NCBI GenBank assembly: GCA_021801355.1
Contig: JAJYYB010000002.1
Location: 1 to 63,801, forward strand
DNA: 63,801 bases
Reading direction: 5' to 3'
Origin: Microcaldota archaeon
GTDB lineage: Archaea; Micrarchaeota; Micrarchaeia; Micrarchaeales; Micrarchaeaceae
In this document: positions 2,981-59,012 of the stretch, piece after piece
Position numbering within the stretch: the first letter of the stretch is position 1
Layout: each line of letters starts with the position of its first letter
The notes under the pieces: model-generated
Database searches by the model: none
What the model was told of the DNA's origin: nothing
What the model saw: the letters and a program-made list of their open reading frames with translations, nothing else
Position numbers and translations under genes: made by a program

Positions 2981-2988
2981 GTTTTGAT

Positions 2989-3336: not shown

Positions 3337-3355
3337 CTTAACTATTGGTGTAGAT

Positions 3356-3625
3356 ATGGACATAGTAGCAATAATTAACGAAATTATAAATGAGGTAAAT
3401 CCACTCATAGAACATAAGGATACAGTAAGCCAGATAGAGATGATATTTAGAAAACATGGGTTTTACACCACTAGAGAATATCCAATATACAAGATAAAAG
3501 ACGGCTCAGGGAGGAGGGGAAGGATTGATTTAGTAGCAAGGAAAGGTAAATTTAGAGTTGCAATAGAATATGACCATCATGAAGTTATAAAGTGGAAAAG
3601 TTTTCAGAAGATAGTACAAATAAAG
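3356..3625 (+). pseudogene. 5' part of a PD-(D/E)XK nuclease-like gene, cut by IS66
   Basis: The start is ATG 3356, preceded by GGTG at a suitable distance; the frame also extends back to 3299 without support. The protein begins with a helical region, then shows GRIDLVARKG followed by FRVAIEYDHHEV, the order D...ExD of a restriction-endonuclease-like core, although the final lysine is not in the usual place. At 3626 the IS66 element interrupts it and the present frame stops at TAG 3635-3637 inside the IS. The rest of the gene is at 5172-5321. Function unknown; it sits between a possible ATPase/membrane module and a type III R-M system. Confidence 0.7.
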
Positions 3626-5163: not shown

Positions 5164-5171
5164 AAATAAAG

Positions 5172-5321
5172 CCAGATATAGCTATTGGCATTGCTGGGAA
5201 AGGAGATCTAGAGCCTAATCTTGAAAGAGCAACAAAGTATATTAAAGCACTAAGCTCACCATTATATGTAATATCTTTAAAACAGAGAACTTACAAATCT
5301 GTACAAAACGGAAAGGACTGA
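5172..5321 (+). pseudogene. 3' remainder of the IS66-interrupted nuclease-like gene
   Basis: Joining AAG 3623-3625 to CCA 5172-5174, i.e. removing the IS and one AAATAAAG copy, keeps the frame open for 49 more codons to TGA 5319-5321. The restored protein is about 140 residues and ends with a helix and strand (LYVISLKQRTYKSV). The following methyltransferase gene starts 4 bases later at 5326, so the intact gene was probably in one operon with the type III R-M genes. Confidence 0.8.
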
Positions 5322-5325
5322 TTGA

Positions 5326-42083: not shown

Positions 42084-42148
42084 CTATGTATATAAGATAA
42101 CACATAATTATTTAAGGGTTTTATCGCTTAGAATTAAACGTGATTCTG

Positions 42149-42580
42149 ATGGGAAATACAAAGGACAAGTTGTTTGCAAAGCTGAACGTCATCTCTATGC
42201 ATGCAAGCGCAATACACAAGTCGTACATGGTGCTGATGCTTCTCTCACTAGTTTCAGTAATGTACGCCCAGTTACCACCTCAAGGCACAGCTGAATATAA
42301 CGCCATGTCAGCGCTTTGCTCTGTATATAATCCTATAGTAGGTATAATATTCATACTTGCACTGGTTCTGATAGTGCTCGGAGGCGCACTTTTCGCAGGG
42401 TCTAACATGCTTCCTGCTCAAACAAAAGGCCAAATACAGAGCTACGGCATGTCAATGATAATAGGCGGCGTTATAGGCATAGTAATATACCTGATCGCAC
42501 CATTTATGATAGGCGTGCTAGGGGGCACAGCGGCTTCTACCCAGATAGGTTACTGCAGCCAATTTGCAACTACTGCATGA
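42149..42580 (+). CDS. VirB2/TrbC-like pilin candidate
   Basis: This 143-residue protein has a long basic start, a signal-like hydrophobic segment ending SVMYAQ (about residue 45), then a mature part of about 95 residues. The mature part holds two membrane helices, IVGIIFILALVLIVLGGALF and MSMIIGGVIGIVIYLIAPFM, joined by a short polar loop (AGSNMLPAQTKGQIQSYG). Cleavable signal plus two-helix hairpin with a Gly-rich turn is the layout of VirB2/TrbC pilins and of archaeal TedC-like pilins. Two Cys flank the hairpin. I start at ATG 42149, behind GTGAT; a GTG at 42140 is also in frame. It stands first in the putative secretion locus. The call rests on topology, not on a search. Confidence 0.55.
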   Translation: MGNTKDKLFAKLNVISMHASAIHKSYMVLMLLSLVSVMYAQLPPQGTAEYNAMSALCSVYNPIVGIIFILALVLIVLGGALFAGSNMLPAQTKGQIQSYGMSMIIGGVIGIVIYLIAPFMIGVLGGTAASTQIGYCSQFATTA

Positions 42581-43855: not shown

Positions 43856-45160
43856 ATGTTAAAAGCAGCCGCATTTCGCATGCGCTTCATAACGATCTTG
43901 GTATTAATTTTTGCCTTATTCCAGTTCATTAATTCCTCCAGCGCCCAGTCACCTTTCGGGTCTGTGAACTGCATCATCACCGGCACGAGCATTCCTGTGG
44001 GGAGCTGCATAGAGTCAGCGATACCGCTCTGGGCAATCGGTATTATGCTCTCATTCGCGCTGATAGGGCTTAGCTACATGCTCGGCGAGATCTTCCAGCT
44101 CAGCGCCCTTAAGGGCTGGTACAGGTCAGAGCTCTGGGAATCAACGAAGACCATGATGCTTGTGGCCGTGATCTTTTCAGTTCTGGTGATATTCAGCTCC
44201 ATAGCTTCATCGCTTGCCGGTACTGGAAGCGCACCTGCTTCTCTTGGCACTACCGGCCAGATATCTCAGAACCTCGGCGGACTATACGCTGTGGCTGGCA
44301 ACTACCTAACGGTAGCATCGCAAAATGCCACGAACTCCATGCTCACGCTATTCGGCGCAGCGTCACAGATAGACTTCTTGAAAAGCTTCCGAATCAGCGT
44401 CTGGTTCCCAATCCCTACGCTGATAGGGCCTGAGACAATAGCGTTCCATTTCGGCGCCGACACCCCGATATTCATAAGCAACCTTATAGACGCAGGACCA
44501 AATTCGTCATCGCTCCTCAGTAACGCTGCGACATTGGTGGTCTTGCCCACACTGATAATGCTGCAGTCGCTCTCCAACCTCTTCTATGACATAGTTGCCT
44601 TGGGCTTCGGCCTCTTTATTCCGCTTGGATTAGTATTCAGGGCAATACCATTCCTCAGGGGTTTCGGCGGCACATTCATCGCTATAGGTCTAACGCTCTC
44701 ATTGGTGCTTCCGATGATTTTCGTCACGGTCAACATACCTGTAAGCGATCTTGTCCTTGGGCAGGGCGTCTACTGCACCTCCGGCAGCCAATCGGTATGT
44801 TCAGCCATAGCCGCGGCGTCAGGTTCAAGCTCTGGATCCTCATGCAATACGGCTTACTCACAATACGGCGCCATACTGGACGCAATACTAGGGTTCCTGG
44901 GCTGCATTTCATCAAACATATCATCGACGTTATCATCCGGATCGGCCTTCTCTACGGGCTACAATGTAGCTAGCGCCACGTTCTCGGAAACGTCAATATA
45001 CCCTATAGCCGACCTTGTTACTTCAATAGTACTGAACTCGGTACTGCAATTCATATTGCTCATAGTTGATTTCATTATAGGTTATACAATAGCAAAGGCA
45101 ATAGCGCAGCAGCTCGGCGGCACGATAAGGCTCGGCTTCGGAAAGATGAGGATGGCATAA
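43856..45160 (+). CDS. VirB6/TrbL-like polytopic membrane protein, paralogue 1
   Basis: This 434-residue protein has a signal-like N-terminus (TILVLIFALFQFINSSSAQ) and about seven further membrane segments. The first inner segment is followed by a cytoplasmic stretch with conserved acidic residues (YMLGEIFQLSALKGWYRSELW). Around residue 260 is the shared signature LVFRAIPFLRGFGGTFIAIG followed by a TM ending in Pro. The last TM has LIVDFIIGYTIAKAIAQQLGG. The same three blocks occur in the next five genes. A late Ser-rich extracytoplasmic loop carries Cys. Alternative start ATG 43880. VirB6/TrbL assignment is by topology and context. Confidence 0.6.
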   Translation: MLKAAAFRMRFITILVLIFALFQFINSSSAQSPFGSVNCIITGTSIPVGSCIESAIPLWAIGIMLSFALIGLSYMLGEIFQLSALKGWYRSELWESTKTMMLVAVIFSVLVIFSSIASSLAGTGSAPASLGTTGQISQNLGGLYAVAGNYLTVASQNATNSMLTLFGAASQIDFLKSFRISVWFPIPTLIGPETIAFHFGADTPIFISNLIDAGPNSSSLLSNAATLVVLPTLIMLQSLSNLFYDIVALGFGLFIPLGLVFRAIPFLRGFGGTFIAIGLTLSLVLPMIFVTVNIPVSDLVLGQGVYCTSGSQSVCSAIAAASGSSSGSSCNTAYSQYGAILDAILGFLGCISSNISSTLSSGSAFSTGYNVASATFSETSIYPIADLVTSIVLNSVLQFILLIVDFIIGYTIAKAIAQQLGGTIRLGFGKMRMA

Positions 45161-45174
45161 ATACGGCAGATTAT

Positions 45175-46452
45175 ATGCAAACGCAATCCAACAAATGCAA
45201 GTTCCTCGTACGCTTGCTAGCCGTGCTCTCAATATTCATACTTGTGGCGCTGCCTTCGACGGCATATGGCGCCCCAACATCGCTAACATCAGATGTCTAC
45301 AACACCGCCTGGATACCAATAAACCTGCTTGTTATAACAGTGAGCTTCGCCATCATAGCGCTAATTTACACCCTATCGAACGTGCTTCCCAGGGACATGA
45401 GGGCCAAGCTCCACTCGCTTGTCATGACAGAGATAAACCAGAACCTGATAAGCGTTCTCATACTGATTATACTCTTCTCGGCTACTGTTATAGTGGGCCA
45501 ATTCTCCGCATCGCTGCCGCTGACTGGTCAGTATGCCTGCAATCTGGAAAGCTCTAGTTGCAACCCGTTCATAATAGCTGATGCATACGTTGACACACTG
45601 ACATTTGTTACCGGTATCAACCTGCTCAACCAGATATACAGCAATTCGATAAGCTACGCTATAAATGCGAGGATTTGGAGCGGGGTCGGGCAGAGCATAC
45701 CTAGCTCTATAGTACCTTCAATAGCCTCACTACTGCAGCTGAAGTCCATAAGCCTGCCATTCATCCAGATAACTCCTGTGTTCGGAGGCGACCTCGGCAT
45801 CTCATACGCCATAATCAGCGACCTCCTTGTTGGGATATTCACGCCGCTGCTCATGGTGACATTGGGTACCATGTTCATACAGTACATAATGATATCCGTC
45901 ATAGAATTCTCTGCATTCTCCATAGTATTGCCTATAGCGCTTATGATGCGCTCCTTCGCGTTCACCGGAGCCGGGCTTAGGACCGCGGCAAACTCGGTTC
46001 TTGCTGTAGCAATAGCAGCCTACCTGATCTACCCGACAATGGTCGCGTTCAATCCAAGCATAATATCATGGATATTCACCTCATGCCAATCCACAACAAC
46101 TGCTTCTGGAGGGTGGTGCAACCCTACATACAAGTACCTTAACACTGCTTACACTCTACCAGACATAACGGTCTCAACTTTTCTGTCGCAGAGTTCAACC
46201 CAGGTCATTTCTGGGGGGCCTTCGCTGACGACATTGGGCATAGGCCAACTGAGCTCGGTGCTAGCGGCAGCGGATCCTTTCTCAGTCACACAAACACTGT
46301 TCACTATCTCGAACAACGTCGCACAATTCATGTTCACTTCAGTAATGCTGTTCGCTCTTGACCTCACCGTAACCCTCGGTTTCGGCGTTGGTCTTGCAAA
46401 GGCGCTCACTGGTGGGCTCGACGGCGTTGCGTCGTTCTGGAGCAACGTATAG
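45175..46452 (+). CDS. VirB6/TrbL-like polytopic membrane protein, paralogue 2
   Basis: This 425-residue protein repeats the plan of its upstream neighbour: signal-like start (LLAVLSIFILVALPSTAYGA), then TM, then a cytoplasmic block LSNVLPRDMRAKLHSLVMTE. The signature is more diverged, MMRSFAFTGAGLRTAANS (about residue 258), followed by a TM ending LIYP. An extracytoplasmic loop with two Cys (CQSTTTASGGWC) and the last TM with ALDLTVTLGFGVGLAKALTGG complete it. The start lies 15 bases after the previous stop. Low sequence identity but the same order of blocks argues for an old duplication. Confidence 0.6.
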   Translation: MQTQSNKCKFLVRLLAVLSIFILVALPSTAYGAPTSLTSDVYNTAWIPINLLVITVSFAIIALIYTLSNVLPRDMRAKLHSLVMTEINQNLISVLILIILFSATVIVGQFSASLPLTGQYACNLESSSCNPFIIADAYVDTLTFVTGINLLNQIYSNSISYAINARIWSGVGQSIPSSIVPSIASLLQLKSISLPFIQITPVFGGDLGISYAIISDLLVGIFTPLLMVTLGTMFIQYIMISVIEFSAFSIVLPIALMMRSFAFTGAGLRTAANSVLAVAIAAYLIYPTMVAFNPSIISWIFTSCQSTTTASGGWCNPTYKYLNTAYTLPDITVSTFLSQSSTQVISGGPSLTTLGIGQLSSVLAAADPFSVTQTLFTISNNVAQFMFTSVMLFALDLTVTLGFGVGLAKALTGGLDGVASFWSNV

Positions 46453-46462
46453 GTGTTGGTTT

Positions 46463-48031
46463 ATGCTTCCGCTATCAAACTTGGTGCTTCAGGTAACCGG
46501 CACATCAGCCATATCGTCGTGTTCAGGGGCCACCTCCGCTCTGGGCCCGGCAAGTGTATGCACCGCACAGACAAGCCTGGCCACATTCATAATATTCGCC
46601 ATCATCATCGACGCGGTGATAATCGGCGTATGGTTCATGATAGGCTATGTGCTCAACGACCAGCGCATCAAGGCAACTGCAAGGGGAGAGTTCCTGCAGC
46701 TGATAGGCACAGGCATATTGGTGGCTGTCGTAGTAGGTGTGCTTGTATTCTTCGCCTCGCTGTATATATCATCATTGGGTTCGTCCGCGCTGAATCCACA
46801 GGCTATGTTCTACACTTGTAACAATATAGCCGCGGGCTCCAGGCTGACGCTCTTTTCCGGTAACTTCCTCGCCGGCACCTCGTACAGCACTGCCAGCAGC
46901 CAGAATGTGCTTGCAGCAAACGGCAATCCAAGCAACTTATACGAGCCTTACAACCTGCTCGCCGGTACTACCACATTCCCCGGTCTTTGTGCCATGGTGG
47001 CAAGCCCTTCGTCATTCACAAACCAGATAGACTATCCTCTCGCTACTACCGCAGTCCTAATAGCGAATCTCACAAACCAGACTGCAGGCAATCTAAATGG
47101 CCTTTTTGAACTCGATACATACTTAGGTTTCCTGGACAGCTTCACGCCATTCGTCGAAGAGTGCGATTCCGCAGGCCTCGCATGCTTGATACCTGGATTG
47201 GGTGTGATAGAATTCAATGGGAAGGTGTCATTCCAGCCTTATGCCGGCTATGATCTAATATTCCAGTCGTACGCGCCGCTTGGCGACCTCCTCTCGCTCG
47301 CTTTCGAGTCGTACATTGCTCAGTTCGTTTTCATAATCGCAGCGCTTTTCATATGGCCTTATCTGCTGTTCATAGGGATAGTGCTTAGGGCCACTCCTTT
47401 CACCAGGGCCATAGGCGGCCTTTTCATAGCGATAGCCATAGGTGTTGTGATATTCCTACCCGTAATATACGGACTCGAATACACCAACCTGTGTTCTGGG
47501 GTGCCATACAACCTGAATGTCGGCCAGCCGCCACCCAGTTGCAACGGTTACAGCAGCACTCCGACAAGCGCATACGCGTTCAACTCGTTCTCCTACGGGT
47601 TCAACGGCATAACGCAGATACCTGCCAACTCTCCGATCACAGGCAATCAATACGTAATAAACTTCTTCGTCCTGCCGAACGTAACGTACATAGGCACCCA
47701 TAACAATTGCTGGCCCAACGGAGGCATATTCAGCTCAGAGCTAAATAACATATTAGCAGCCATGGTGCCTTTCAGCGAAATAACTAGCGCAATCTTTATA
47801 GCCTCGGGCAACGGAGTGCCGAGCGGCGTGCCTGTTCTGAGCACTCAGGCCTGCCAGCCAACTGACGCCAGGATGTTGCTCTACCAGCTCTTCGACGCCT
47901 ACGGGGTAGTTGGCGTGAGCGCTTACTTCATGCCGATAATAGATTTGATGGTGGTCATATCCGGGATAATAGGCCTTTCCGGCATGCTCGGCGGCGACAC
48001 CGAGCTCGCAGGCCTGGCTAAGCTCGTTTAG
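46463..48031 (+). CDS. VirB6/TrbL-like polytopic membrane protein, paralogue 3 (longest)
   Basis: This 522-residue paralogue starts at ATG 46463, behind AGGTGT; the frame extends to 46388 inside the previous gene, but that is unlikely. There is no classical signal; it opens with a short extracytoplasmic segment containing Cys (SSCSGA, SVCTAQ). The cytoplasmic block reads LNDQRIKATARGEFLQLIG and the signature is IVLRATPFTRAIGGLFIAIA (about residue 306), followed by a TM ending LPVIYG. Two extracytoplasmic inserts make it longer than the others. The last TM ends GLSGMLGGDTELAGLAKLV. Confidence 0.6.
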   Translation: MLPLSNLVLQVTGTSAISSCSGATSALGPASVCTAQTSLATFIIFAIIIDAVIIGVWFMIGYVLNDQRIKATARGEFLQLIGTGILVAVVVGVLVFFASLYISSLGSSALNPQAMFYTCNNIAAGSRLTLFSGNFLAGTSYSTASSQNVLAANGNPSNLYEPYNLLAGTTTFPGLCAMVASPSSFTNQIDYPLATTAVLIANLTNQTAGNLNGLFELDTYLGFLDSFTPFVEECDSAGLACLIPGLGVIEFNGKVSFQPYAGYDLIFQSYAPLGDLLSLAFESYIAQFVFIIAALFIWPYLLFIGIVLRATPFTRAIGGLFIAIAIGVVIFLPVIYGLEYTNLCSGVPYNLNVGQPPPSCNGYSSTPTSAYAFNSFSYGFNGITQIPANSPITGNQYVINFFVLPNVTYIGTHNNCWPNGGIFSSELNNILAAMVPFSEITSAIFIASGNGVPSGVPVLSTQACQPTDARMLLYQLFDAYGVVGVSAYFMPIIDLMVVISGIIGLSGMLGGDTELAGLAKLV

Positions 48032-48039
48032 GTATTAGC

Positions 48040-49257
48040 ATGTCAATGAAACAAAACGCATTGCCAAGATTCGCATTGATAATGCTAGCGCTGCTCATGC
48101 TGACCAATGTGGCATACGCCCAAACGTCGCAGGGGACCACGTCCAGCCAGGTCTGCCAGAGCATAATACAGGCCTACACGACCTCTACAGTGCCGCAGTC
48201 GCAGGGCTCGTCTTCATCATCAGGCGCATCAATAACTGTAAACATAGCCAGCTTCACATCCCTGATAGTGATATCGCTGCTGATAATAAGCCTGATGGGC
48301 GCGCTGATAGCTATAATATACGCGGTTGGCCAGGCATTCGGTATTGATAGGCTTACCAGGTTCGCCAAGGCCGAGGTCGGCGAGATAGCCATAACGCTCC
48401 TGATAATATTCATATTCCTCGGCACGCTCTCCTTGACTGGCACTTTCACAAATTCGAGCAGTCTCTTCGCAGCTGCAGGCAGTTCGTTCAATACGAACAT
48501 ATTCGTCGATGATTGCAATGCTGTCATGGCGTCTTCATATTCGCTAATATCGCCAGAACTCTCTTTCGTCATCGATAGCGGCCTGATTAACATAGCGTCT
48601 GGAACCGTCATATCAACGCAGCTTTCGGATTTCGGCGTTTCGTTCAATCCGTTCGCAGGCGATGAGTTCCTCGGCACTATATTGCAGACGCTGATAAGCA
48701 TAGGCGGGGTGATGATAGGGCTGCTTTTCGGCATAGGCGTATTCCTTGCGGTGATATACGGCATGTTCCCGATGTTCCTCTTCGCAGGAATAGTGCTGAG
48801 GACGCTCCCTTTCACCAGGCCGGCAGGCGGTGCGTTCCTCGGGCTTTTCGTAGGGTTCTACATATTCCTGCCATTGATACTCCATTTCCTGCTGTTCTAC
48901 AACAGCACGTTCCTCACGCAGAGCCAGAACGGCCTTTGCGGCCCGAGCTCGTGCAACACAGGTGACTTAATAACACAATTCGTGGGCTACATGAGCGGAG
49001 GGGCGACCACAGCACTGACTGGTAATTCAATCACAAGCGGTCTAAACGGTGCCTCGACCTTCGGGACGAGCACGATATCATTGCTGAACGGCTCCATCAT
49101 ACAGGCTTTCGTAAGCCTCATAATAGAGCCGGTATTCTACACGATGCTCGCTTTTATACTTTCATTGATAATGGCGTATGATTTTATGGAAGCCGTTGGC
49201 GACCTTCTCGGTGCGCCTAGCCTTAAGTCGAGCGCGATGCTCAAGAACGTGATATGA
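48040..49257 (+). CDS. VirB6/TrbL-like polytopic membrane protein, paralogue 4
   Basis: This 405-residue paralogue has a signal peptide (LPRFALIMLALLMLTNVAYAQ), then TM1 and the cytoplasmic block FGIDRLTRFAKAEVGEIAI. The signature is IVLRTLPFTRPAGGAFLGLF (about residue 250), followed by a TM ending FLPLIL. A Cys-containing loop (GLCGPSSCNTG) precedes the last TM, which reads LIMAYDFMEAVGDLLGAPS. The start is eight bases after the previous stop. It is the clearest representative of the conserved R-x2-P-F-T-R-x2-GG signature. Confidence 0.62.
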   Translation: MSMKQNALPRFALIMLALLMLTNVAYAQTSQGTTSSQVCQSIIQAYTTSTVPQSQGSSSSSGASITVNIASFTSLIVISLLIISLMGALIAIIYAVGQAFGIDRLTRFAKAEVGEIAITLLIIFIFLGTLSLTGTFTNSSSLFAAAGSSFNTNIFVDDCNAVMASSYSLISPELSFVIDSGLINIASGTVISTQLSDFGVSFNPFAGDEFLGTILQTLISIGGVMIGLLFGIGVFLAVIYGMFPMFLFAGIVLRTLPFTRPAGGAFLGLFVGFYIFLPLILHFLLFYNSTFLTQSQNGLCGPSSCNTGDLITQFVGYMSGGATTALTGNSITSGLNGASTFGTSTISLLNGSIIQAFVSLIIEPVFYTMLAFILSLIMAYDFMEAVGDLLGAPSLKSSAMLKNVI

Positions 49258-49258
49258 C

Positions 49259-50386
49259 ATGAAGCCGCAATCGCTCGCAATTGTATGCGTCGCCTCTCTA
49301 CTCATGCTAGCTTGCTCGACCAATGCGGCTTCGCTTGACGAGTCATTTTCGCATTACTACAATCCAGGTGCTCTTTTCACCGCATCAGCGCAATCCTATA
49401 CACTGCAATCCTATCTGCCAGTCGAGATAACAAGCTGGGAAGGCCTTGCAGTGATAGCGATACTGCTTGTTATAGCAGTGGCTTCCATAATCTATCAGCT
49501 AAGCGGTGTGACAGGCAGCAGCAATGCACGTGCATGGTCAAAGATGCAGGTGTATGAAGGCCTCGTTTCGCTACTTTTGATAGGGATATTCGGTACTTTC
49601 TCCTACCTCTTCTTCCTGAATCCTCAGGGCGCATTCCAGAGCGCAAACTTACTGCCTAACAGCTGTGGTCCTGTAAACGCGCCCAATGTCAACAACATAT
49701 ATAACTTGTCTACATGCGACCTGAGCTTCTTCCTGCTAAATGCAACGGGCTATTTCGAGGACCTGTACTACGTCGGTTTCATAGCAGGCGCAGCAACCCC
49801 TGGAGTCATACTAAATTTCACCCCCCTCAATCCGGTGCTGGGCCAGTCCGGGGTATTCGTACAGTTGGGCGATCCGAGCCTGCTTCCCTCTTCGATGGAA
49901 TCGCTGCTTACGACGGCTGATTCAGGCCTATTGTCTTTCATACTACTGAACCAGGTGCAGATGATCCTTCTTTCAGGGTCGCTACTGTTCCTGTCGTTCT
50001 TCATGGTGCTGGGTCTGGTAGCCAGGAGCTTCGGCTTCACAAGGACGTTCGGAGGCTCGATGATAGCTTTCGGCCTTGGCCTAGGCATGGTATACCCGCT
50101 TCTTGTCAGCATGAGCTACGGCTTCATAGACGTGCAACTGCAGCAGACATCTATAGCCTCGATAGGCTCCTCGCTGGCAAGCACAATATTCTCGATAGTG
50201 GGTAGCACGGTAACGAATTCGCCCCCTGCGCTCTCTACGGCCGTGCTCGAGACCGGCTATCTGCTGGTTGGGTTGTTGATAATACCATTGCTCAACTTTG
50301 CCATACTGGACGCGTTCATAGTCGACTTCTCTAAGGCGATCGGCGAGCGCATAGACTTCATGTCGATGATAGGCAGCGTGATATGA
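49259..50386 (+). CDS. VirB6/TrbL-like polytopic membrane protein, paralogue 5
   Basis: This 375-residue paralogue begins with a signal-like segment (LAIVCVASLLMLACSTNAAS); the Cys in LACS could make it a lipoprotein. TM1 is followed by LSGVTGSSNARAWSKMQVYE. The signature is LVARSFGFTRTFGGSMIAFG (about residue 250), followed by a TM ending YPLLV. The last TM has LDAFIVDFSKAIGERIDF. The start codon is one base after the previous stop, so translation is coupled. Confidence 0.6.
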   Translation: MKPQSLAIVCVASLLMLACSTNAASLDESFSHYYNPGALFTASAQSYTLQSYLPVEITSWEGLAVIAILLVIAVASIIYQLSGVTGSSNARAWSKMQVYEGLVSLLLIGIFGTFSYLFFLNPQGAFQSANLLPNSCGPVNAPNVNNIYNLSTCDLSFFLLNATGYFEDLYYVGFIAGAATPGVILNFTPLNPVLGQSGVFVQLGDPSLLPSSMESLLTTADSGLLSFILLNQVQMILLSGSLLFLSFFMVLGLVARSFGFTRTFGGSMIAFGLGLGMVYPLLVSMSYGFIDVQLQQTSIASIGSSLASTIFSIVGSTVTNSPPALSTAVLETGYLLVGLLIIPLLNFAILDAFIVDFSKAIGERIDFMSMIGSVI

Positions 50387-50387
50387 T

Positions 50388-51578
50388 ATGGTGAACCGCA
50401 GACTTAAGATAGAGGCGCTTGTCATAGCTCTTTTGCTAGCCATGGCTCTCTCGATTGTGCCTGCTAATGTAACTAATGCGCAGCAGACACAGCAAAGTAC
50501 TTTGCCTGATATAATCCTCGTGCAATCAGGCGGTACGCCCACTACCACTATACCTACATACCAGGCATGCGGGTATTATCCGCCCGAGCTCGCCACCCAG
50601 CTGGCCAACGTGCCATGGTACTGCCCAATAAACCAGCAGATAACTGCGGAGTGGAATGTCGACCTGCCATACGTTTTCATATCCCTTATACTAGCGTTCC
50701 TCGTCTCGGGCTTGATAATAATGATAGGGATCGCCGGGAAGAGCGATTCGGTAAGGAACTTCGGGATGGGAGAGCTCTACGAGGCTATCGCCAGCACTAT
50801 AATAGTAGGGCTATTCATCTACATAACCGCAGCCCTTTTCGGCCTGCTTCCTGCTAACCTTGTCGGCACTTACAATCCTTACGCAACAGCTCTCAACCTT
50901 ATAAACACCACGATAACCACGTCAGAGAATCTTTACACATCTTTGTACCAGACGTACATAACAGACAGCTTCTTCGCTTCGGTCAACATAGCGATAAGTT
51001 ATCCTCTTTCTGATGTGATAAATCCATGGTCGCTGATAGCAAACTTCTTCGACGCAGCCAAGCAGGAGGCGCTCATGATACAGGTCATAGAGCCGATCCA
51101 GGTCATAACGGGGGTGCTCAACAGCGCCATAATAGTGCTATGGTCGGAATATTACCTTATAGTATTCTTCTCAGTGGCTGCGATTCCGGTTTTCATAGTG
51201 CCAGGTGTGCTATTCAGGATATTCCTGCCGACGAGGCCGTTCGGTGGAATGCTCCTTTCGCTCGGGATAGGCTTCTACCTAGTAATGCCAACGCTTTTTG
51301 CCATAGTCTCTGTATTCGGTCTGTCAGGTGCAAATGCAAGCTTGGGCAATGCGACAGCGCAGATATCGAACCTTGGGGCCGGTGCAGGTGCCATAAACAA
51401 CAGCGGACAGATAGCCACGCAACTTCAGACCGTAACGGCAGCCATGAGCCAGTTCTGGCTCATGATAATATTCTTCCCCGGGCTCATAATCGCGCTCACG
51501 TATTCGTTCGTCACGCAGATGGCCAACTTCATAGGCGGTGTCTCGTATAGCGGGAGCAGGCTTAGGTCGTTCATATGA
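50388..51578 (+). CDS. VirB6/TrbL-like polytopic membrane protein, paralogue 6
   Basis: This 396-residue paralogue has a signal peptide (VIALLLAMALSIVPANVTNAQ), TM1 and the cytoplasmic block KSDSVRNFGMGELYEAIAS. The signature is VLFRIFLPTRPFGGMLLSLG (about residue 273), followed by a TM ending MPTLF. An extracytoplasmic loop rich in Gly, Ala and Asn precedes the last TM, LIIALTYSFVTQMANFIGG. The start is one base after the previous stop. It is the last of the six in a row; a 99-base gap follows. Confidence 0.6.
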   Translation: MVNRRLKIEALVIALLLAMALSIVPANVTNAQQTQQSTLPDIILVQSGGTPTTTIPTYQACGYYPPELATQLANVPWYCPINQQITAEWNVDLPYVFISLILAFLVSGLIIMIGIAGKSDSVRNFGMGELYEAIASTIIVGLFIYITAALFGLLPANLVGTYNPYATALNLINTTITTSENLYTSLYQTYITDSFFASVNIAISYPLSDVINPWSLIANFFDAAKQEALMIQVIEPIQVITGVLNSAIIVLWSEYYLIVFFSVAAIPVFIVPGVLFRIFLPTRPFGGMLLSLGIGFYLVMPTLFAIVSVFGLSGANASLGNATAQISNLGAGAGAINNSGQIATQLQTVTAAMSQFWLMIIFFPGLIIALTYSFVTQMANFIGGVSYSGSRLRSFI

Positions 51579-51677: not shown

Positions 51678-52508
51678 ATGCAAACTAAAACTTTGGTTCT
51701 GTTAGCTTTTTTGGGCGTTTCTGTAGTTCTGCTAGCATTTGCAGCTGCGCTTCCGTCCGGCGGCCTTCTCGACATACTGAAGCTGATACTTCTGGTCTTG
51801 GCTCTGCTCTTCGATATCCTGGCTTTCGCATCAAGGTTCTACACATATCTTATGGTGCCAGCGCTACAGCAGAGGAGCAAGGACATAATTCTGAGCAACG
51901 ACGAGGCTTACACAATATCGCCTTCAGCGGATTCAACTATACACAAGGAGGGCAGCGAATTCGTCGCCACTGTTTACGTCAGCATACCACTATATAGGTC
52001 CGCTACAGAAATGAGCGACGAGGAGAAGCTTGACTTTACGAGGCAGGTGAGCAAATTGGTGGGCGTGAGCGGCGATCCTGTGCGCTTCACTTCCGAGCTT
52101 TACGTGATGAATAAGGACGCTTACATACAGACGCTGAAGGACACGATAAATTCCCTTGAGAACGATGTGGTCGCCCTGACGAGCAAGAAGAGCCAGCCCA
52201 AGGAGCTGGATCGCGCGAAGGGCAAGCTCGCCATGTGGCATAACATGCTGGACAACATAGAAAAGGTGCAGTCGCTCGAGCTCGTGACCTACGCCGCAGT
52301 ATCGGCTAAAGGTACGAAGGAGTTCGAGGCGGTAAGTATAGCGCAGCAGAGGGCGAGGGACATAATGTCCGGCATAGGTTCGATATTCGGGGTCACTCCG
52401 AGCATAGTCACCGGACAGGAGCTGCTCAAGTTCATCGAGCCAGAGTACCTTATACCTTTCTCCACGATAAGCGAGCAGCTGAGCAGGAACATACAGCAGG
52501 TGATTTGA
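51678..52508 (+). CDS. membrane hairpin plus soluble domain, VirB3/VirB4-N-like (first of two)
   Basis: This 276-residue protein has two N-terminal membrane helices (TLVLLAFLGVSVVLLAFAAA and LLDILKLILLVLALLFDIL), then a cytoplasmic domain of about 210 residues. The domain mixes strands (EFVATVYVSIPLY) with long helices (YIQTLKDTINSLENDVVAL), then ELVTYAAVSAKG and ends near PEYLIPFST. A two-TM hairpin followed by such an alpha/beta domain is the layout of PrgI/VirB3 fused to the N-terminal domain of VirB4. Here the ATPase domain is a separate gene two positions downstream. The call is structural inference. The next gene starts directly at its stop. Confidence 0.5.
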   Translation: MQTKTLVLLAFLGVSVVLLAFAAALPSGGLLDILKLILLVLALLFDILAFASRFYTYLMVPALQQRSKDIILSNDEAYTISPSADSTIHKEGSEFVATVYVSIPLYRSATEMSDEEKLDFTRQVSKLVGVSGDPVRFTSELYVMNKDAYIQTLKDTINSLENDVVALTSKKSQPKELDRAKGKLAMWHNMLDNIEKVQSLELVTYAAVSAKGTKEFEAVSIAQQRARDIMSGIGSIFGVTPSIVTGQELLKFIEPEYLIPFSTISEQLSRNIQQVI

Positions 52509-53342
52509 TTGGATGAAGAAGCGATAATGTACCTCCTGTTAACGTTCATGGTAGCTCTCGCAGTGGTCCTAATATTGCCATCGTTCGGGAAGGGCATAGT
52601 TTCGATACTGGCCCTAATACTCGCGCTTGTCACAGTAGCCATAATAGTGATGCTTAACTGGGCAGACTTCATAATATTCCCGCTTGTGACCAGCCTGCTC
52701 GGCATGACCTTCCAGCCGGCCAGGAACTACAAGATAACAAAGAACCAGGATGCGATAGTGAAGAACGTCAACGGGCTGTACTACGCCACCGGCTATGTGA
52801 CTGCCAACCTCCTTCCTTACGTTTTCAAGCTCGAGTCGAGGCAGGAAGAGGAGAATCAGAAGATGTTGCAGGCCCCTGATACGTGGGAGCGCGCGATAAT
52901 GAACATAGGTTTCCCGTTCAAGTTCCACGTGCTTTCCTCGGGCCTTGACGTGCAGGACGTGAGGGACGAGCTTGAGGGCAAGAGGTCATACCAGGAGTTC
53001 CAGCTCTCCAGGCTGCAGCAGGGCTCCAACGCAAGCGAGACCGCAGTCACTGAAATAAGGAGGAAGATAAGCGTGCTGCAGACTAAGATCGACAGGATAT
53101 CGCAGGGAGAGAAGCCAATAGCCACAATAATGTACTTCGAGACTACTGCGGTTGACGTCTCGGAGAAGGCTGCGGTAGACAGGCTGTCGGCGCAGATAAA
53201 GAGCCTGCAGGTTTCGTTCAGCTCGCTAGACGTGCAGTTGGCCAAAGTGGTAGGCCGTGAACTTTACACGCTGTTCAAGTTCAATTTCTCGCTTCCAACG
53301 ACTTATACAGAGATATCAGGTTATTTCGACAGGCAGTCATGA
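52509..53342 (+). CDS. membrane hairpin plus soluble domain, VirB3/VirB4-N-like (second of two)
   Basis: This 277-residue protein has the same architecture as its upstream neighbour: two membrane helices (TFMVALAVVLILPSF and ILALILALVTVAIIVML), a short amphipathic segment, then an alpha/beta domain. The domain contains IVKNVNGLYYATGYVT, FPFKFHVLSSGLDVQDVRDE and a long coiled region (TEIRRKISVLQTKIDRIS), ending VGRELYTLFKFNFSLP. The segment with an MNIGFPFKFHV strand resembles VirB4/TraC N-domains. The TTG start at 52509 follows the previous stop without a gap; ATG 52527 is the alternative. It precedes the ATPase gene by 27 bases. Confidence 0.5.
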   Translation: MDEEAIMYLLLTFMVALAVVLILPSFGKGIVSILALILALVTVAIIVMLNWADFIIFPLVTSLLGMTFQPARNYKITKNQDAIVKNVNGLYYATGYVTANLLPYVFKLESRQEEENQKMLQAPDTWERAIMNIGFPFKFHVLSSGLDVQDVRDELEGKRSYQEFQLSRLQQGSNASETAVTEIRRKISVLQTKIDRISQGEKPIATIMYFETTAVDVSEKAAVDRLSAQIKSLQVSFSSLDVQLAKVVGRELYTLFKFNFSLPTTYTEISGYFDRQS

Positions 53343-53369
53343 GCAATAAAATGTTTTAGGGTTTGTAAA

Positions 53370-54881
53370 ATGACACTACTGAAGCTACAGAGCATCATGA
53401 GCAATGAGGTCGCCAAGCGGGCCTTCTTCTCCAGGCCACCCGAGCCCCCGGTAAGTGCGCTAATGACCGACCCTTTCAAGTCGCTCTACATAGGCACCAC
53501 TAAGATATTCAGGGTGCCATTCACATGGTCGTTCTTCAACCTGACCAACCCGCACATAGCAGTCGTCGGTATAACCGGTTCTGGAAAAAGCTATTTCGTC
53601 AAGACCCTTCTCATAAGGGCGAGCTACGTTTGGAACACCAACGCCGTTATAATAGACTGGGCCGGGGAGTACAAGGCATGGGTAAAGCAGAGCGGCGGTG
53701 TGGTCGTTGCATTAGCCAAGGGCGACTACCTGAACATAATGGATCTCTCCGGTATGAAGCCGCTCGACAGGACAAAGCAGATAATGAACTCGCTTGACAT
53801 ACTCACCGACATAAGCCAATTCCCAGAGCAGAAAAGGCTTACAGAGGAGGCGATAGAGCAGTCCTATGCAAACTTCGGTTTCATAGTCTCTGAGAGGCCG
53901 CTCGACAACAGGGATGCGCCAACGTTTAAGGACGTCATAGCGCTGCTCGAGGAGAAGCTGCAGGAAGGCACTTACGAATACCCTGCCGAGCTCGAGAACA
54001 CGATATACAGGCTTCGCCAGTTCGCGCGCGAAGGCGAGGACTATTTCGCCAGGAAGAGCACCATAGACCTCGGCAAGCTTTCCGAATCAGGCCTAGTCGA
54101 CATAGACCTATCGGGGCTCCCCGACGAGAAGTTCAGGGCTCTCGCCGGCCTATTCATACTGCAGACGCTGAAGGAACGCATGAGGAGCGAGGGCTGGAGC
54201 GAAAGCAAGGGGCTCAAGGCCATAGTCGTCCTGGACGAGGCATGGAAGATAGCAAGCGATGAGAAGAGCGACGCAATAATGATAGTCAGGGAGGGAAGGA
54301 AGTACCAGTTCGGCCTCATAGTAGCCTCGCAGAACCCGACCGACATAAACGAGGCAATATTCTCCAACGTCGGCACAACTTTCATACTAAGGATAAAGTT
54401 CGAAAAGTTTCTCAACTACTTACAGGGCTCGATGAATTTCTCAAGCTTCATAAGGAACGAGATAGGCAAGTTCGGGGTGGGCCAGGCCGCGGTAGAGATG
54501 GCTTTTCAGAGCGCGATAAGGTTCCCTGAGACATTCATACTAGAGAGGATACACGGCGAGGAGCCGCTTTACGTCTACACGATAGATATGACTGACGTAC
54601 TCACGCAGGCTGAGGTGGCTGCAGGAGTGATGCAGCGTGACTACCAGTTCGAGAGGGATGAGCTGAAGGATAGGCTGGTCGACTACAACGTCAGCAGCGA
54701 GGGCGTTAACGCTACTCTTTCATCATTCGACAGCAGTGGCAGGAGCATGAAGATGCTCGACATGCTGCGCATAGTTAAGGACACTGGCGGGATAACGAAC
54801 GAGAACCTCGTCTCGTTCCTAAAGAGCCTTAGCATAGATGACATACTCATAACGAGGATACTTGGCTCATTAGGTGTCTAG
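53370..54881 (+). CDS. VirB4/HerA-family ATPase of the secretion-like locus
   Basis: This 503-residue hexameric-type ATPase has Walker A VVGITGSGKSYFVKTL (about residues 65-80), Walker B AIVVLDEAWKIAS (about 285-297) and the sensor/finger segment REGRKYQFGLIVASQNPTDI (about 308-328). The N-terminal 60 residues form a short strand-rich entry, much less than a full VirB4 N-domain, which fits its supply by the two upstream genes. The C-terminus is helical and ends DDILITRILGSLGV. It would power pilus assembly or DNA movement. It is related to the broken ATPase at the left window edge. Strongest anchor for the T4SS-like call; a HerA-type translocase is the alternative. Confidence 0.85.
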   Translation: MTLLKLQSIMSNEVAKRAFFSRPPEPPVSALMTDPFKSLYIGTTKIFRVPFTWSFFNLTNPHIAVVGITGSGKSYFVKTLLIRASYVWNTNAVIIDWAGEYKAWVKQSGGVVVALAKGDYLNIMDLSGMKPLDRTKQIMNSLDILTDISQFPEQKRLTEEAIEQSYANFGFIVSERPLDNRDAPTFKDVIALLEEKLQEGTYEYPAELENTIYRLRQFAREGEDYFARKSTIDLGKLSESGLVDIDLSGLPDEKFRALAGLFILQTLKERMRSEGWSESKGLKAIVVLDEAWKIASDEKSDAIMIVREGRKYQFGLIVASQNPTDINEAIFSNVGTTFILRIKFEKFLNYLQGSMNFSSFIRNEIGKFGVGQAAVEMAFQSAIRFPETFILERIHGEEPLYVYTIDMTDVLTQAEVAAGVMQRDYQFERDELKDRLVDYNVSSEGVNATLSSFDSSGRSMKMLDMLRIVKDTGGITNENLVSFLKSLSIDDILITRILGSLGV

Positions 54882-54884
54882 CTG

Positions 54885-55193
54885 ATGGCTAACGAAGAGA
54901 CGTTCACGATAAGCCGCGCAGAACTGCGGCGCATACTGACAAATTTCGGCGTCACGGAAAAGAACCTGACGGCTCTTTTCAACTCCATGGAGAAGGCGCA
55001 CAGGCACATAAACATAATAGCATTCGTAAGCATGCTCGAGAAGGCAGGCATGGATCGCGACGAGACCGGCAACATATTCAGGAGGCTTAACATGGACGAC
55101 GTAACGATAAAGCGTGCGTTTGATATGGTGGACGAGGAGAAGATCAATTCAGAGACAGGCAGGCTTTACGATGCCTCTGTTGACATAAGTTGA
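54885..55193 (+). CDS. small helical protein, possible ATPase adaptor
   Basis: This 102-residue soluble, charged helical protein reads FVSMLEKAGMDRDETGNIF then RRLNMDDVTIKRAFDMVDEE. The C-terminus of the upstream ATPase has a similar run (LKSLSIDDILITRIL), so both may share one small helical module. The start lies three bases after the ATPase stop. No family is recognised. A role as adaptor or docking subunit of the ATPase is inference. Confidence 0.6.
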   Translation: MANEETFTISRAELRRILTNFGVTEKNLTALFNSMEKAHRHINIIAFVSMLEKAGMDRDETGNIFRRLNMDDVTIKRAFDMVDEEKINSETGRLYDASVDIS

Positions 55194-55197
55194 TGCT

Positions 55198-55608
55198 ATG
55201 GGAAAGAAGGGCGCCAAGGCTTCACCAGCTGCGTATGGTTCGAGATGTATAATCTGCGGCCTTGAAAAGGACGGCTTAGAGGTCAAGGAAGATTACGTAA
55301 TAAATGCCATGAGATACTTCAAGAAGAATATCACCAAGAACGCAAAGAACTACAGGCTTGTAGTGTGCAAGGAATGCTTCCCGAAATACGACAAGGCAAG
55401 GAACAGCTACGTGAAGAAGCAGATATCGTATGTCGCAATAGCCGTGGCTTTTGCTGTCTTGCTCATAATAGTCGCTGCTGGAAATTTGGGTGCAATAGTC
55501 TACGGCCTTGCAATCATAATATTCATGTACCTGCTTTCGCTGCTTAGCTACACGCCAGGAGTTAAAATGCCTCCTAATGTAAAGCCGCCGAAGGTTGGAC
55601 GCAAATAA
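55198..55608 (+). CDS. zinc-ribbon membrane protein
   Basis: This 136-residue protein has a zinc-binding N-terminal part with CIICGLEKDG (about residue 18) and CKECFPKYDK (about residue 56). Two close membrane helices follow (ISYVAIAVAFAVLLIIVAA and GAIVYGLAIIIFMYLLSLL), and the tail is basic and Pro-rich. The zinc knuckle faces the cytoplasm. It starts four bases after the preceding stop, so it is in the same operon. Similar Zn-ribbon plus two-TM proteins occur widely in archaea without known function. Confidence 0.65.
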   Translation: MGKKGAKASPAAYGSRCIICGLEKDGLEVKEDYVINAMRYFKKNITKNAKNYRLVVCKECFPKYDKARNSYVKKQISYVAIAVAFAVLLIIVAAGNLGAIVYGLAIIIFMYLLSLLSYTPGVKMPPNVKPPKVGRK

Positions 55609-55695: not shown

Positions 55696-56433
55696 GTGAT
55701 ACAAGTGCCTGATGAAAACGTTGTTCTTGAACCAAAAGTCGACGCTATAACTATTGGAGGCTCTCTGCAAGGCTCCTTCGAATCGATGGCAACAAGGCTT
55801 TCCCCGCTGCAGGTTTTCTCCATCAAGTCTACCCCGGACAGACTCGTGGTACTACGGGTCGAGAGCAGGGACATGCAGAAGAATCCATTCCTGTTCTTCA
55901 TGATGACATTCGAGAAGGACAAGATAACTGTCGAGTATTCCATAGTGCAGGACACAAGCTTCAAGCTGAGGCGCCTTTTCGTGCTCAGGAACCTCCTCAG
56001 CGTAATCTCACTCAATCTGGACATGTACCAGCCAAACCCAGTCGAGCTTTTCCAGCAGCTCAGCTCATCTATAGACGACGCGCTCAACTCACTTGATCAG
56101 AGCTACAGCTCCCTCGTTAACAATTACGATTATATATTCAACGAGTACAGGGAGCTGAAGAAGCTCGGCGCCCAGCTTATGGCCTCGAACAAGAGCATGA
56201 CCGTGCAGGCTTCGCAGTTGGCATCGGAGAACGAAGCGCTCAAGGCAAGGCTGAAGTCGCTTGAAGCATACTCCGACGAATCCCTGATGTCGATGATTGA
56301 GGACTGGATACAGGCCCATGACAACACGATAGACATAGACGAGTTCGCCAAGAACTACAAGATAGTCGCGCCACGCGTCGAGCAGATGCTCAACAAGATG
56401 GTCTCGCTTGGCTATATAGAGTTCAGGGGCTAG
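55696..56433 (+). CDS. coiled-coil protein with C-terminal winged helix
   Basis: This 245-residue soluble protein has an N-terminal beta-rich domain of about 110 residues (FSIKSTPDRLVVLRVESRD; KDKITVEYSIVQD), a coiled coil from about residue 115 to 195 (NEYRELKKLGAQLMASNKS), and a C-terminal winged helix (IDIDEFAKNYKIVAPRVEQM, then GYIEFRG). The start is GTG 55696 or GTG 55705; no ATG fits. An AT-rich stretch (ATGTATTTATAGAATTAAG, near 55650) may hold its own promoter. No family is recognised. It could regulate or organise the locus. Confidence 0.6.
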   Translation: MIQVPDENVVLEPKVDAITIGGSLQGSFESMATRLSPLQVFSIKSTPDRLVVLRVESRDMQKNPFLFFMMTFEKDKITVEYSIVQDTSFKLRRLFVLRNLLSVISLNLDMYQPNPVELFQQLSSSIDDALNSLDQSYSSLVNNYDYIFNEYRELKKLGAQLMASNKSMTVQASQLASENEALKARLKSLEAYSDESLMSMIEDWIQAHDNTIDIDEFAKNYKIVAPRVEQMLNKMVSLGYIEFRG

Positions 56434-56615: not shown

Positions 56616-59012
56616 ATGCAGGGCGGCACTAAAAAGAAAATAGTCATAGCAACATTGGTACTTGTAGTGCTTCTAGGTGCGCTGGCCTTCTATCTTAACG
56701 CAGCCCTATCCTCATTCAGGTCACAAATAAGCCAGCCGACCGGTCCGCCAGCAGTGCCATCAATATCTGCACAGCTACTAAACCAGAGCTTCATGGCCTA
56801 TAGTTCAGGATCTACGCTCTTGCCCTACGCCCTAATAAAAGTAGCATCCAGGAACGCCTCGACAATAAACGTGTATGCCAGCATATTCAAGAACCCTGTG
56901 CCGCAGCAGATATACATATTCAACATGACTAACGAATGCTACCAGTGCGGTAACATTACCGCTTTCACCGATTCTATAGATACTAGCCTTATAAAGTACG
57001 GCTTGATAAAGAACTCCGGCGTTGTGCTTTCAGTTTCAGGCTCCGAACTGGCTAATATATCTAATTACTCAATACTAATAGTGCCAAACGGCTACATCCC
57101 AGAGGCTTTCATGAGCAATTACAGCAACACGCAGAATTCCACAATCCAATACCTCATGAAAAAAGGCGTAAGCATCATATACGTCGGTGCAGACTTCTCT
57201 AACATGCTGGAGCCAGGATCCATAATAGTCCCTTCAGGCACGCTTCCTTACTTCCTGCGCACCCTGCCGTTCACCAAGCTTAACCAGAGCACAATAGGTT
57301 CATTCGGTAACTTCTATTTCAACAAGACGCAGTTCACCTTTGCCTCGGGCCAGTCCTATGGCTACCTATCATACGAGAACGTGCTGAATGGCTCTATTGT
57401 TGCATTCTCCAACTATGGGACCTCATGGTCAAACTCTACTGATGAGGGCAGGGACATAGCAAAGGCCATATCATCGCTGTTCTGGTTGCCGCGATACGCA
57501 AGCGGGACCCAATCGTTCAGCCTGATTAACTCAACCAAGTTCAATGGCGACATAGGCATACCACTCTACACGAGCTCCCTGCATTACACATATCCGGAAT
57601 CGCTGGCGCTAGGCAAGACATACGCACGTATAGCGCTTTACACCAACGCAAGCTACAATATAACTGCTCCGAACAGCGCCTACACATACGTCACATACAC
57701 ACCGCAATTCGGCATAAACGGTTCGGTATCAATACCATCATCCATTATACCGGGGCAACGCACGGCTTTCGACCTAGACATATTCACTCATTCCAACACC
57801 TCCATATCTCTGCTTCCGCATCTGCAAATATACGACCAGAACATGACCCCGGTTGAGGGAATCGCGCTCCCCTCGATACAGCAAGCGTCCGGCAACTTCA
57901 CGTTCCTTAAATACCTAACGCTAGAACTGCCTCCCGGAGTTTACATAGCTGCTCTAGACAACTTCACGGACCACCCATACGCGTACGGCCTATTCGACGT
58001 AAACCTCTCAGTAACGCTTCTGTCAGCCAACTTCTCTTCCAACCAGTTCACGTTCTACGTTTCTTCTGCCGGACAAGCCCTCAGCGGCGTTAACTACTCG
58101 GTGCATCTTTCGAACCAGCAATCAAAGTATGCATTCCCAGTAGAAAACGGCACGCTCACCAACGGCACTATTGTTTACACTGTACCAAGCGGCGCCCCGG
58201 CGCTGTATTACAGCTCCAACATAACTGTAAATATGCTGTCAAGCAGGTTCAGCTTCTTCGCTTTCAACCAGCCGCCCCCATTCCCGATAAATACGCAGGA
58301 CATAGAGATACTTGTAGTTTTCGCCGTCCTTGGCCTGATGGTCGTATTTGTCAGGGCGCCTAACAGGGACGAGTTCTACATAGACGTGCCTCACATGCCG
58401 CCCAAGAACAAGACGCAGATAAAAATCAAGGCGTCCGAGGTGACTGGTATATTCGACAAGCTAAACCTCTACTATCACTGGAACCACATGCCGCTTTCGA
58501 AGAGCGAGATAAAGCTTGCGATCTCGAAGTACATAAACTTCAGCGGCATGCCGGTCAACCTAACGTTCAGCAATGTCGAGAAGATCCTTGACCAACTCGT
58601 AGCGTCCGGCAAGCTCGTTACCGTAGACGGCCTCTACGCTCCCCAGTTATGGGTCCTGCATGGCCACGACATAGAGTACCTTGCTACTTTCAAGAAGCTC
58701 AGGGTGTTCCTGGTCTCGCACGGTTACCTTTTCACCGAAATAGACGCGAGCAACGTCGCTGACATAGTGGCTACACAGCACGGCGAGCATGCCTACATAG
58801 TGATTTATTCGAAAACCAGCAGGTTCGCCAACATGCCCGTATTCCAGAACGCCAAGACATACCTTGCATTCCTAAACTCAGACCGCATTGATGAATTCAG
58901 GATGAACCTTTACAATGACAGCACTAACGAGGCGGAGATGCTCAAGCTCTACATGGCTTCAGGGACGGTGGAGCTCATCGATGCGGACAACCAGCAGCCG
59001 ATACTTACTTGA
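56616..59012 (+). CDS. large bitopic membrane protein with glycosylatable ectodomain and cytoplasmic winged helix
   Basis: This 798-residue protein has an N-terminal TM (IVIATLVLVVLLGALAFYL), an ectodomain of about 530 residues, a second TM at about 561-580 (IEILVVFAVLGLMVVFV) and a cytoplasmic tail of about 215 residues. The ectodomain is rich in Asn, Ser and Thr with many N-x-S/T sites; its first part looks Rossmann-like (ILIVPNGYIPEAF; GVSIIYVGADFSNML) and the later part beta-sandwich-like. The tail has a winged-helix-like segment (MPVNLTFSNVEKILDQLVAS) and an alpha/beta end with AYIVIYSKTSRF. It ends the secretion-like locus. Cell-contact or receptor role is inference. Confidence 0.65.
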   Translation: MQGGTKKKIVIATLVLVVLLGALAFYLNAALSSFRSQISQPTGPPAVPSISAQLLNQSFMAYSSGSTLLPYALIKVASRNASTINVYASIFKNPVPQQIYIFNMTNECYQCGNITAFTDSIDTSLIKYGLIKNSGVVLSVSGSELANISNYSILIVPNGYIPEAFMSNYSNTQNSTIQYLMKKGVSIIYVGADFSNMLEPGSIIVPSGTLPYFLRTLPFTKLNQSTIGSFGNFYFNKTQFTFASGQSYGYLSYENVLNGSIVAFSNYGTSWSNSTDEGRDIAKAISSLFWLPRYASGTQSFSLINSTKFNGDIGIPLYTSSLHYTYPESLALGKTYARIALYTNASYNITAPNSAYTYVTYTPQFGINGSVSIPSSIIPGQRTAFDLDIFTHSNTSISLLPHLQIYDQNMTPVEGIALPSIQQASGNFTFLKYLTLELPPGVYIAALDNFTDHPYAYGLFDVNLSVTLLSANFSSNQFTFYVSSAGQALSGVNYSVHLSNQQSKYAFPVENGTLTNGTIVYTVPSGAPALYYSSNITVNMLSSRFSFFAFNQPPPFPINTQDIEILVVFAVLGLMVVFVRAPNRDEFYIDVPHMPPKNKTQIKIKASEVTGIFDKLNLYYHWNHMPLSKSEIKLAISKYINFSGMPVNLTFSNVEKILDQLVASGKLVTVDGLYAPQLWVLHGHDIEYLATFKKLRVFLVSHGYLFTEIDASNVADIVATQHGEHAYIVIYSKTSRFANMPVFQNAKTYLAFLNSDRIDEFRMNLYNDSTNEAEMLKLYMASGTVELIDADNQQPILT

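Follow-up and report, generated by a model that had tools for sequence, protein, structure and literature searches.

Putative VirB4 N1-like membrane modules encoded separately from their ATPase in Micrarchaeota

Gene content of the split locus

A VirB4-type motor usually consists of one chain that carries a membrane anchor, a collar domain and an ATPase, and it moves DNA between cells. In a 63,801-nucleotide stretch from a Microcaldota archaeon (assembly GCA_021801355.1, contig JAJYYB010000002.1, positions 1 to 63,801 of the forward strand; hereafter the window), these parts appear to be shared out between three neighbouring genes of the + strand. The first gene (P1, 51678..52508) encodes 276 amino acids from an ATG start and the second gene (P2, 52509..53342) encodes 277 amino acids from a TTG start. 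They represent two copies of a transmembrane (TM) hairpin joined to a domain that resembles the first N-terminal domain (N1) of VirB4. The third gene (53370..54881) encodes a stand-alone VirB4/CedB/HerA-type ATPase of 503 amino acids without an N-domain, as judged from Pfam and CedB/CedD matches and from the Walker motifs. The sequence-only reading of the window had placed the three genes at these positions on the + strand and had seen, in each of the two genes before the ATPase, a soluble domain behind a two-TM hairpin; this was borne out.

The TTG start of P2 was found immediately 3′ of the TGA stop of P1. The orthologs of P2 were found to start with ATG, GTG or TTG codons, and the TTG start is credible because they most often begin with M-D-E-E. 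The TM segments were placed by hydropathy at residues 6-24 and 33-51 of P1 and at residues 5-23 and 30-48 of P2, followed by the presence of about 215-225 further residues in each protein. The genes of P1, P2 and the ATPase share one reading frame in the window genome, with stops between them. The family profiles of P1 and P2 matched each other at 99.8% probability over 260 columns (hhalign) with an identity of only about 16%, and since pairwise BLASTP of P1 against P2 gave no match, their paralogy is a profile-only signal. By these profiles, P1 and P2 are full-length paralogs.

The ATPase was found to contain no TM segment by hydropathy. It matched Pfam DUF87 (E 1.2e-17) as well as CedD (1.1e-21), CedB (1.1e-17) and the CD1110 VirB4 (8e-16), the latter three in their ATPase portions only. 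The alignments begin at position 253 of the CedB profile and position 223 of the CedD profile, which leaves about 38 residues ahead of the motor core, and as the open frame comprises only 512 codons, no in-frame N-domain is possible. The short N-terminus that had been read from the sequence was thereby upheld. The Walker A (G67/G70/G72-K73-S74) and Walker B (V287-L-D-E290) residues were invariant in 28 sequences, and the core matched CD1110, TrsE and TraC at 96.8-98.4% (hhalign). With its RecA-like core, Walker A and B and VirB4/CedB-type motifs, the protein falls in the VirB4/HerA superfamily, whereas it departs from a canonical VirB4 in that the N-terminal domain is not on the same chain. 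It also differs from CedB in its score against the CedB model NF041017, which was 61-64 bits, far under the curated cut-off of 700 bits. Judged from the alignments, the ATPase is without both N1 and the second N-domain (N2).

In a separate observation, one ATPase ortholog (locus L222, G059:C37:1500-6800) was found to contain an apparent intein in a frame of 1067 amino acids. The insertion lies just ahead of the Walker B sequence VLDEAW and contains 'CMHGDEE' at the N-end, a LAGLIDADG-like 'LVKADGYI' and 'FVVNRLFSSN/C' at the C-end.

Similarity of the soluble domains to VirB4 N1

Plasmid records supplied the reference VirB4, TraC, TrsC, TrsD and TrsE proteins. The pooled soluble N-domains (150 sequences) matched N1 of the CD1110-type (Gram-positive) VirB4 proteins plus TrsD at 90.2% over 154 colinear columns (hhalign), and they matched the N1 set enlarged by five references at 89.7% over 161 columns. 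The N2 of the same VirB4 proteins matched the N-domain family at 1.8%. The N1 references gave a maximum of 0.2% with shuffled columns and 0.2% when reversed, followed by maxima of 2.0% (60 trials) and 19.7% (100 trials) with shuffled blocks. As control queries, four neighbouring protein families and one membrane-array family all remained below 1% against N1. The positive control, TrsD against the N1 of CD1110, reached 92.1%. A missing match to VirB4 N-domains would have told against a detached VirB4 unit; the match that was found is about as strong as that of the published relationship between TrsD and VirB4 in the same comparison. A weak CD1110 match at locus L132 was located in N2 and a coiled coil and was hence left uncounted.

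The CedB model provided a second line of comparison. Its profile positions 12-219 resemble the N-gene of a relative (L184; E 0.003), hairpin and N-domain included, and positions 253-536 resemble the ATPase. Residues 180-256 of P2 gave a weak match to positions 147-217 (E 0.023), and the model was matched by 7 of the 56 P2-family proteins (best E 0.0013). In genomes G193, G077 and G065, the match spans the stop between the N-gene and the ATPase, and the ATPase therefore starts where the N-domain ends.

These matches suggest that P1 and P2, anchored in the membrane and made as separate proteins, serve as N1 modules for a VirB4/CedB-type translocase, with the ATPase as the motor that continues the chain after N1 in CedB, and we give this reading a probability of roughly 0.78. 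By the profile matches, the soluble domains are homologous to VirB4 N1, the first N-domain only, and an alpha/beta nature would be expected from that homology. A detached and duplicated VirB4 N-terminal unit had been proposed earlier; an N1-like domain fused to a TM hairpin and duplicated next to the ATPase was retained from this proposal, whereas N2 was not matched.

Several results weigh against the reading of P1, P2 and the ATPase as one such translocase. The P2 family alone matched the N1 set at 22.8% and the single-gene subfamily at 8.5%, and the N-domain matched a TrsD-only profile, with the CD1110 sequences removed, at just 28%. The signal was uneven in the other subfamilies as well (77.5% for the P1 family, 73% and 26% for the subfamilies of the third and second gene pairs described below), and the N1 assignment is therefore that of the pooled family, the subfamilies of which match one another at 98.6-100%. 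Single-sequence hidden Markov model matches from the N-domain to VirB4/CedB were weak (mostly E 0.001-0.02, best 3.6e-5) and were mixed with coiled-coil noise from Pfam/NCBIfam. Profile searches of PDB with P1, P2 and a 50-sequence family returned no VirB4 chain and mainly coiled coils; this negative is tempered by TrsD and TraC, accepted relatives, which likewise do not match each other. In one complete genome, ARM-1 (G016; L053/L213), the two N-genes and the ATPase are separated by over 20 kb; as they are unlinked there, N-genes can be fully separate genes. The six membrane proteins encoded upstream matched no VirB6 family among the family models searched, and a DNA-transfer function would be ascribed to the locus by analogy only.

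The many coiled-coil families among the single-member matches and the mainly coiled-coil PDB matches would favour a different origin, in which the soluble domains come from a different superfamily, as a coiled-coil membrane adaptor, and resemble N1 because a helical insert between strands has converged. This is considered quite improbable, as the N1 match spans 154-161 colinear columns, does not survive the shuffling of blocks and is seen neither with N2 nor with the coiled-coil family encoded nearby (55696-56433), and as the CedB matches across the stop put the domain in the right order.

Distribution of the split arrangement

Scanning genome contigs for the ATPase gave 80 loci, nearly all labelled Micrarchaeota. 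Exactly two N-genes and an ATPase were found in 72 of them, and the remainder were mostly contig-edge or frameshifted copies. The N-genes and the ATPase were adjacent and co-directional in most loci, with gaps mostly of -4 to +10 bases between P1 and P2 and of 4 to 60 bases between P2 and the ATPase. In the whole-genome search of 146 Micrarchaeota genomes, the N-family was found in 133 and the ATPase in 130, both parts being present in about 130. Neither part was found in 12 genomes and one alone was absent in 5 (Fisher p 1.9e-13, which is only indicative because the genomes are not independent). The split is the rule in Micrarchaeota and not an oddity of the window genome. An assembly or sequencing artefact was rejected, since the same split recurs in more than 100 genomes, where the genes overlap slightly or are narrowly spaced, in several reading frames.

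Outside the window's order, most families were found to contain one N-gene directly 5′ of an ATPase of about 524 amino acids (L115-L118, L120, L122, L123, L125, L127, L128, L130, L131). Many of these single-N genomes contained a second pair, with one N-gene and an ATPase of about 480-530 amino acids (L132-L134, many of L153-L195), and a third, more distant pair was present in some order-level genomes (L185, L194, L209-L211). The sequence-only reading had called the arrangement unusual, which does not hold for Micrarchaeota, where one N-gene is commoner outside the window's order.

No fusion of N-domain and ATPase was found among the CedB-model matches listed for 196 genomes. CedB-matching open reading frames of 550-750 amino acids were tried as fused forms and rejected, as those checked were separate HerA/TraG-like ATPases without an N-domain. 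No relatives were found in viral contigs scanned with VirB4 and with the ATPase, and tblastn of one N-protein gave no match in plasmids.

The HerA/TraG-like ATPases of 550-750 amino acids (L196-L208) are widespread in the order, and at least one of them (L196) was found to contain two N-terminal TM segments. They may be VirD4-like coupling proteins.

Duplication of the N-gene

Two trees of the N-domain placed duplications within two families whose other sampled members carry one N-gene, with sister pairs at L126 in family f12 (96/91) and at L212 in family f7 (97/92), followed by a further duplication for f11 and the window's order. These trees point to three or more independent duplications of the N-gene, with the adjoining ATPase staying single. 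The stems of P1 and P2 in the window's order were found to contain 1.6-1.7 changes per site each, and the two are strongly diverged, as such long stems show. Family f8 (L119, L129) also contained two N-genes, where long branches obscure whether the duplication was a separate one. A loss as the origin of the single N-gene was rejected, the single state being commoner in deeper families and the two-gene state arising inside f7 and f12.

The two-N loci of f1, f2 and f11 were also found to contain a tandem VirB6-like array, and the single-N loci were mostly without it. The association is not strict, because the f8 loci contain two N-genes and no array.

Comparison with known systems

The ATPase core and N1 are homologous to those of bacterial VirB4 proteins (CD1110/PrgJ, TraC, R388 TrwK), whereas these are made as one chain and the window contains three chains in which no N2 was found. 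The two-TM hairpin directly ahead of a VirB4 N-domain resembles VirB3/PrgI/TrsC in topology and position, whereas VirB3 mostly stands alone or is joined to a whole VirB4. Hydrophobic hairpins contain little discriminating sequence signal.

Detached N-portions of VirB4 had been described before, which qualifies the sequence-only reading. TrsD, in pGO1-type (MPF-FATA) plasmids and Patescibacteria, is a stand-alone protein remotely homologous to the N-portion of VirB4 and is encoded mostly near VirB4 (PMC12102498). P1 and P2 are alike in being detached N-portion genes that adjoin a VirB4-type gene; they depart from TrsD in the presence of the hairpin and in the low TrsD-only profile match. On plasmids of Geobacillus, Paenibacillus, Planococcus and Bacillus, one fusion of a TrsC-like hairpin and TrsD, of 344-352 amino acids, was found 5′ of a short VirB4 (L147 354-1400; L149 354-1412; L223 607-1641; L224 568-1605), and its architecture is the same as that of P1 and P2. 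Each plasmid region that was read contained one TrsD, whereas the module is duplicated in the window. TrsE retains N2 (it aligns with the CD1110 VirB4 from column 225), whereas the window ATPase has neither N1 nor N2.

A Haladaptatus plasmid (L148) was found to contain a protein of 352 amino acids (2730-3788) 5′ of a VirB4-like ATPase of 745 amino acids (3788-6025), with a TrsD match of 59.9%. Haloarchaeal plasmids may thus also carry a detached VirB4 N-portion.

TrsD has no assigned function (PMC12102498), and TrsE in the TrsD plasmids retains its own N2. Both points would agree with N-modules that stand outside the motor ring, as assembly or gating factors of a type IV secretion system (T4SS) sharing ancestry with N1, as perhaps TrsD does. 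This is judged unlikely for P1 and P2, since the window ATPase is without an N-domain and without a membrane anchor, and something must therefore supply both.

In the crenarchaeal Ced DNA-import system, the VirB4 N-domain is shared out between CedB and CedD, with VirB6- and VirB2-like partners (PMC11868833, PMC9905601). CedB and CedD of Saccharolobus contain different parts of the N-domain and both are required for DNA import (PMC11868833). Each N-part in Ced stands on its own ATPase chain, giving two ATPases, whereas separate N-chains share one ATPase in the window locus.

The detached N-portion of TrsD, the hairpin and TrsD fusions on Bacillota plasmids and the divided N-domain of Ced are thus already known. 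Three features of the predicted arrangement appear new as far as the open-access papers searched show, namely that the split is the standard state in Micrarchaeota, that the ATPase carries neither N-domain and that the detached module was duplicated more than once while the motor stayed single.

Proposed collar and motor

In the proposed mechanism, the N-proteins most likely supply the N-terminal parts of CedB, that is, the membrane anchor and the N1 collar. The N1 modules would form a membrane collar, and this would hold a homomeric hexamer of the ATPase below the VirB6-like proteins. Pilus assembly and/or the transfer of DNA would then be powered by ATP hydrolysis, the transfer probably being an import or exchange like that of Ced or an uptake from a host. 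After the duplication, P1 and P2 would have taken different positions or partners, giving a heteromeric collar on a homomeric motor.

The collar of the motor may be built from two different subunits, as the piece comprising anchor and collar is duplicated in the window lineage, and a heteromeric ring is plausible. A shared collar is made plausible by the Saccharolobus CedB and CedD, which cover different N-domain parts and are both needed. The TM-less CedB and CedD formed stable homo-oligomers and no stable hetero-oligomer of the two was purified, which weighs against this parallel (PMC11868833). The independent duplication of the N-module at least three times would suggest that heteromerisation was repeatedly favoured. 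We only tentatively propose the specific form of a hetero-oligomeric P1/P2 collar (e.g. 3+3 or 6+6) on a homohexamer under a six-paralog VirB6-like pore, which would be an asymmetric version of a machine that is symmetric elsewhere.

The identity of about 16% and the long stems are also what is expected if each of P1 and P2 meets only itself, and the two would then form separate homomeric collars, as alternative complexes or two stacked rings, and not a mixed or alternating ring. The Saccharolobus homo-oligomers speak for this as well. It is a possibility that we hold with some doubt, as P1 and P2 strictly co-occur, in tandem and with one ATPase gene, which favours one complex.

By the N1 reading, a VirB4/Ced-type translocase with a fully detached collar domain would be part of the chromosomal core in almost all of the Micrarchaeota genomes sampled, and the detached and repeatedly duplicated collar would provide a natural experiment on the role of the VirB4 N-domain apart from the motor. 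Micrarchaeota are small-genome archaea thought to be host-dependent. Patescibacteria are host-dependent bacteria that also retain a T4SS whose VirB4 N-portion is detached, listed as essential in one species (PMC12102498). Owing to this parallel, a use of split T4SS motors for taking material from hosts could be tested in both kinds of episymbiont.

Surrounding genes

As the VirB4-type ATPase is joined by a VirB2-like pilin candidate and six VirB6-like paralogs, this part of the window is tentatively read, from its predicted gene content, as a minimal T4SS/Ced-like core locus. The VirB2/TrbC-like pilin candidate (42140..42580, +) was found to contain a signal peptide and two hydrophobic helices. 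It matched PF18895 (T4SS_pilin) at E 0.017, below the cut-off, and it aligned with the pilins of L124, which match PF04956 (1e-4) and PF18895 (2.4e-4), also below the cut-offs. This candidate heads the membrane array and has conserved Cys residues on either side of the two helices; two copies were found in L124.

The pilin candidate is followed by the presence of six polytopic membrane proteins on the + strand, at 43856..45160, 45175..46452, 46388..48031 (the true start probably lies somewhat downstream of 46388), 48040..49257, 49259..50386 and 50388..51578. They comprise 375-547 amino acids with 6-7 TM segments and are mutual paralogs, one profile finding up to 7-8 of them per locus. Five of the six array profiles (profile 6 and four others) matched the membrane protein encoded 5′ of the second pair in L132/L133. 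The six are probably VirB6/CedA-like, by topology, position and synteny. The second split pair of the deeper lineages contains one such membrane protein, whereas the window contains six at 43856-51578.

Downstream of the ATPase, a protein of 102 amino acids (54885..55193, +) shares homology with the helical domain at the ATPase C-terminus and is conserved next to the ATPase; a search with the ATPase profile also recovered its orthologs (E 1e-11 to 1e-15). This helical domain is another motor piece that is found both attached (53370-54881) and detached (54885-55193). It is followed by three further conserved neighbours on the + strand. The first (55198..55608) encodes 136 amino acids with two CxxC pairs and two TM segments and was present in 94 loci, one per locus. 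The second (55696..56433) encodes a coiled-coil protein of 245 amino acids, present in 90 loci and also beside the second split pair. The third (56616..59012) encodes 798 amino acids with TM segments at 9-27 and 563-581, a large segment between them and about 215 residues after them, and was present in 81 loci. At the start of the window (1-1036), another HerA/CedB-like ATPase frame is truncated by the contig end, with a match to positions 468-521 of CedB at 14-184 (E 3.4e-8).

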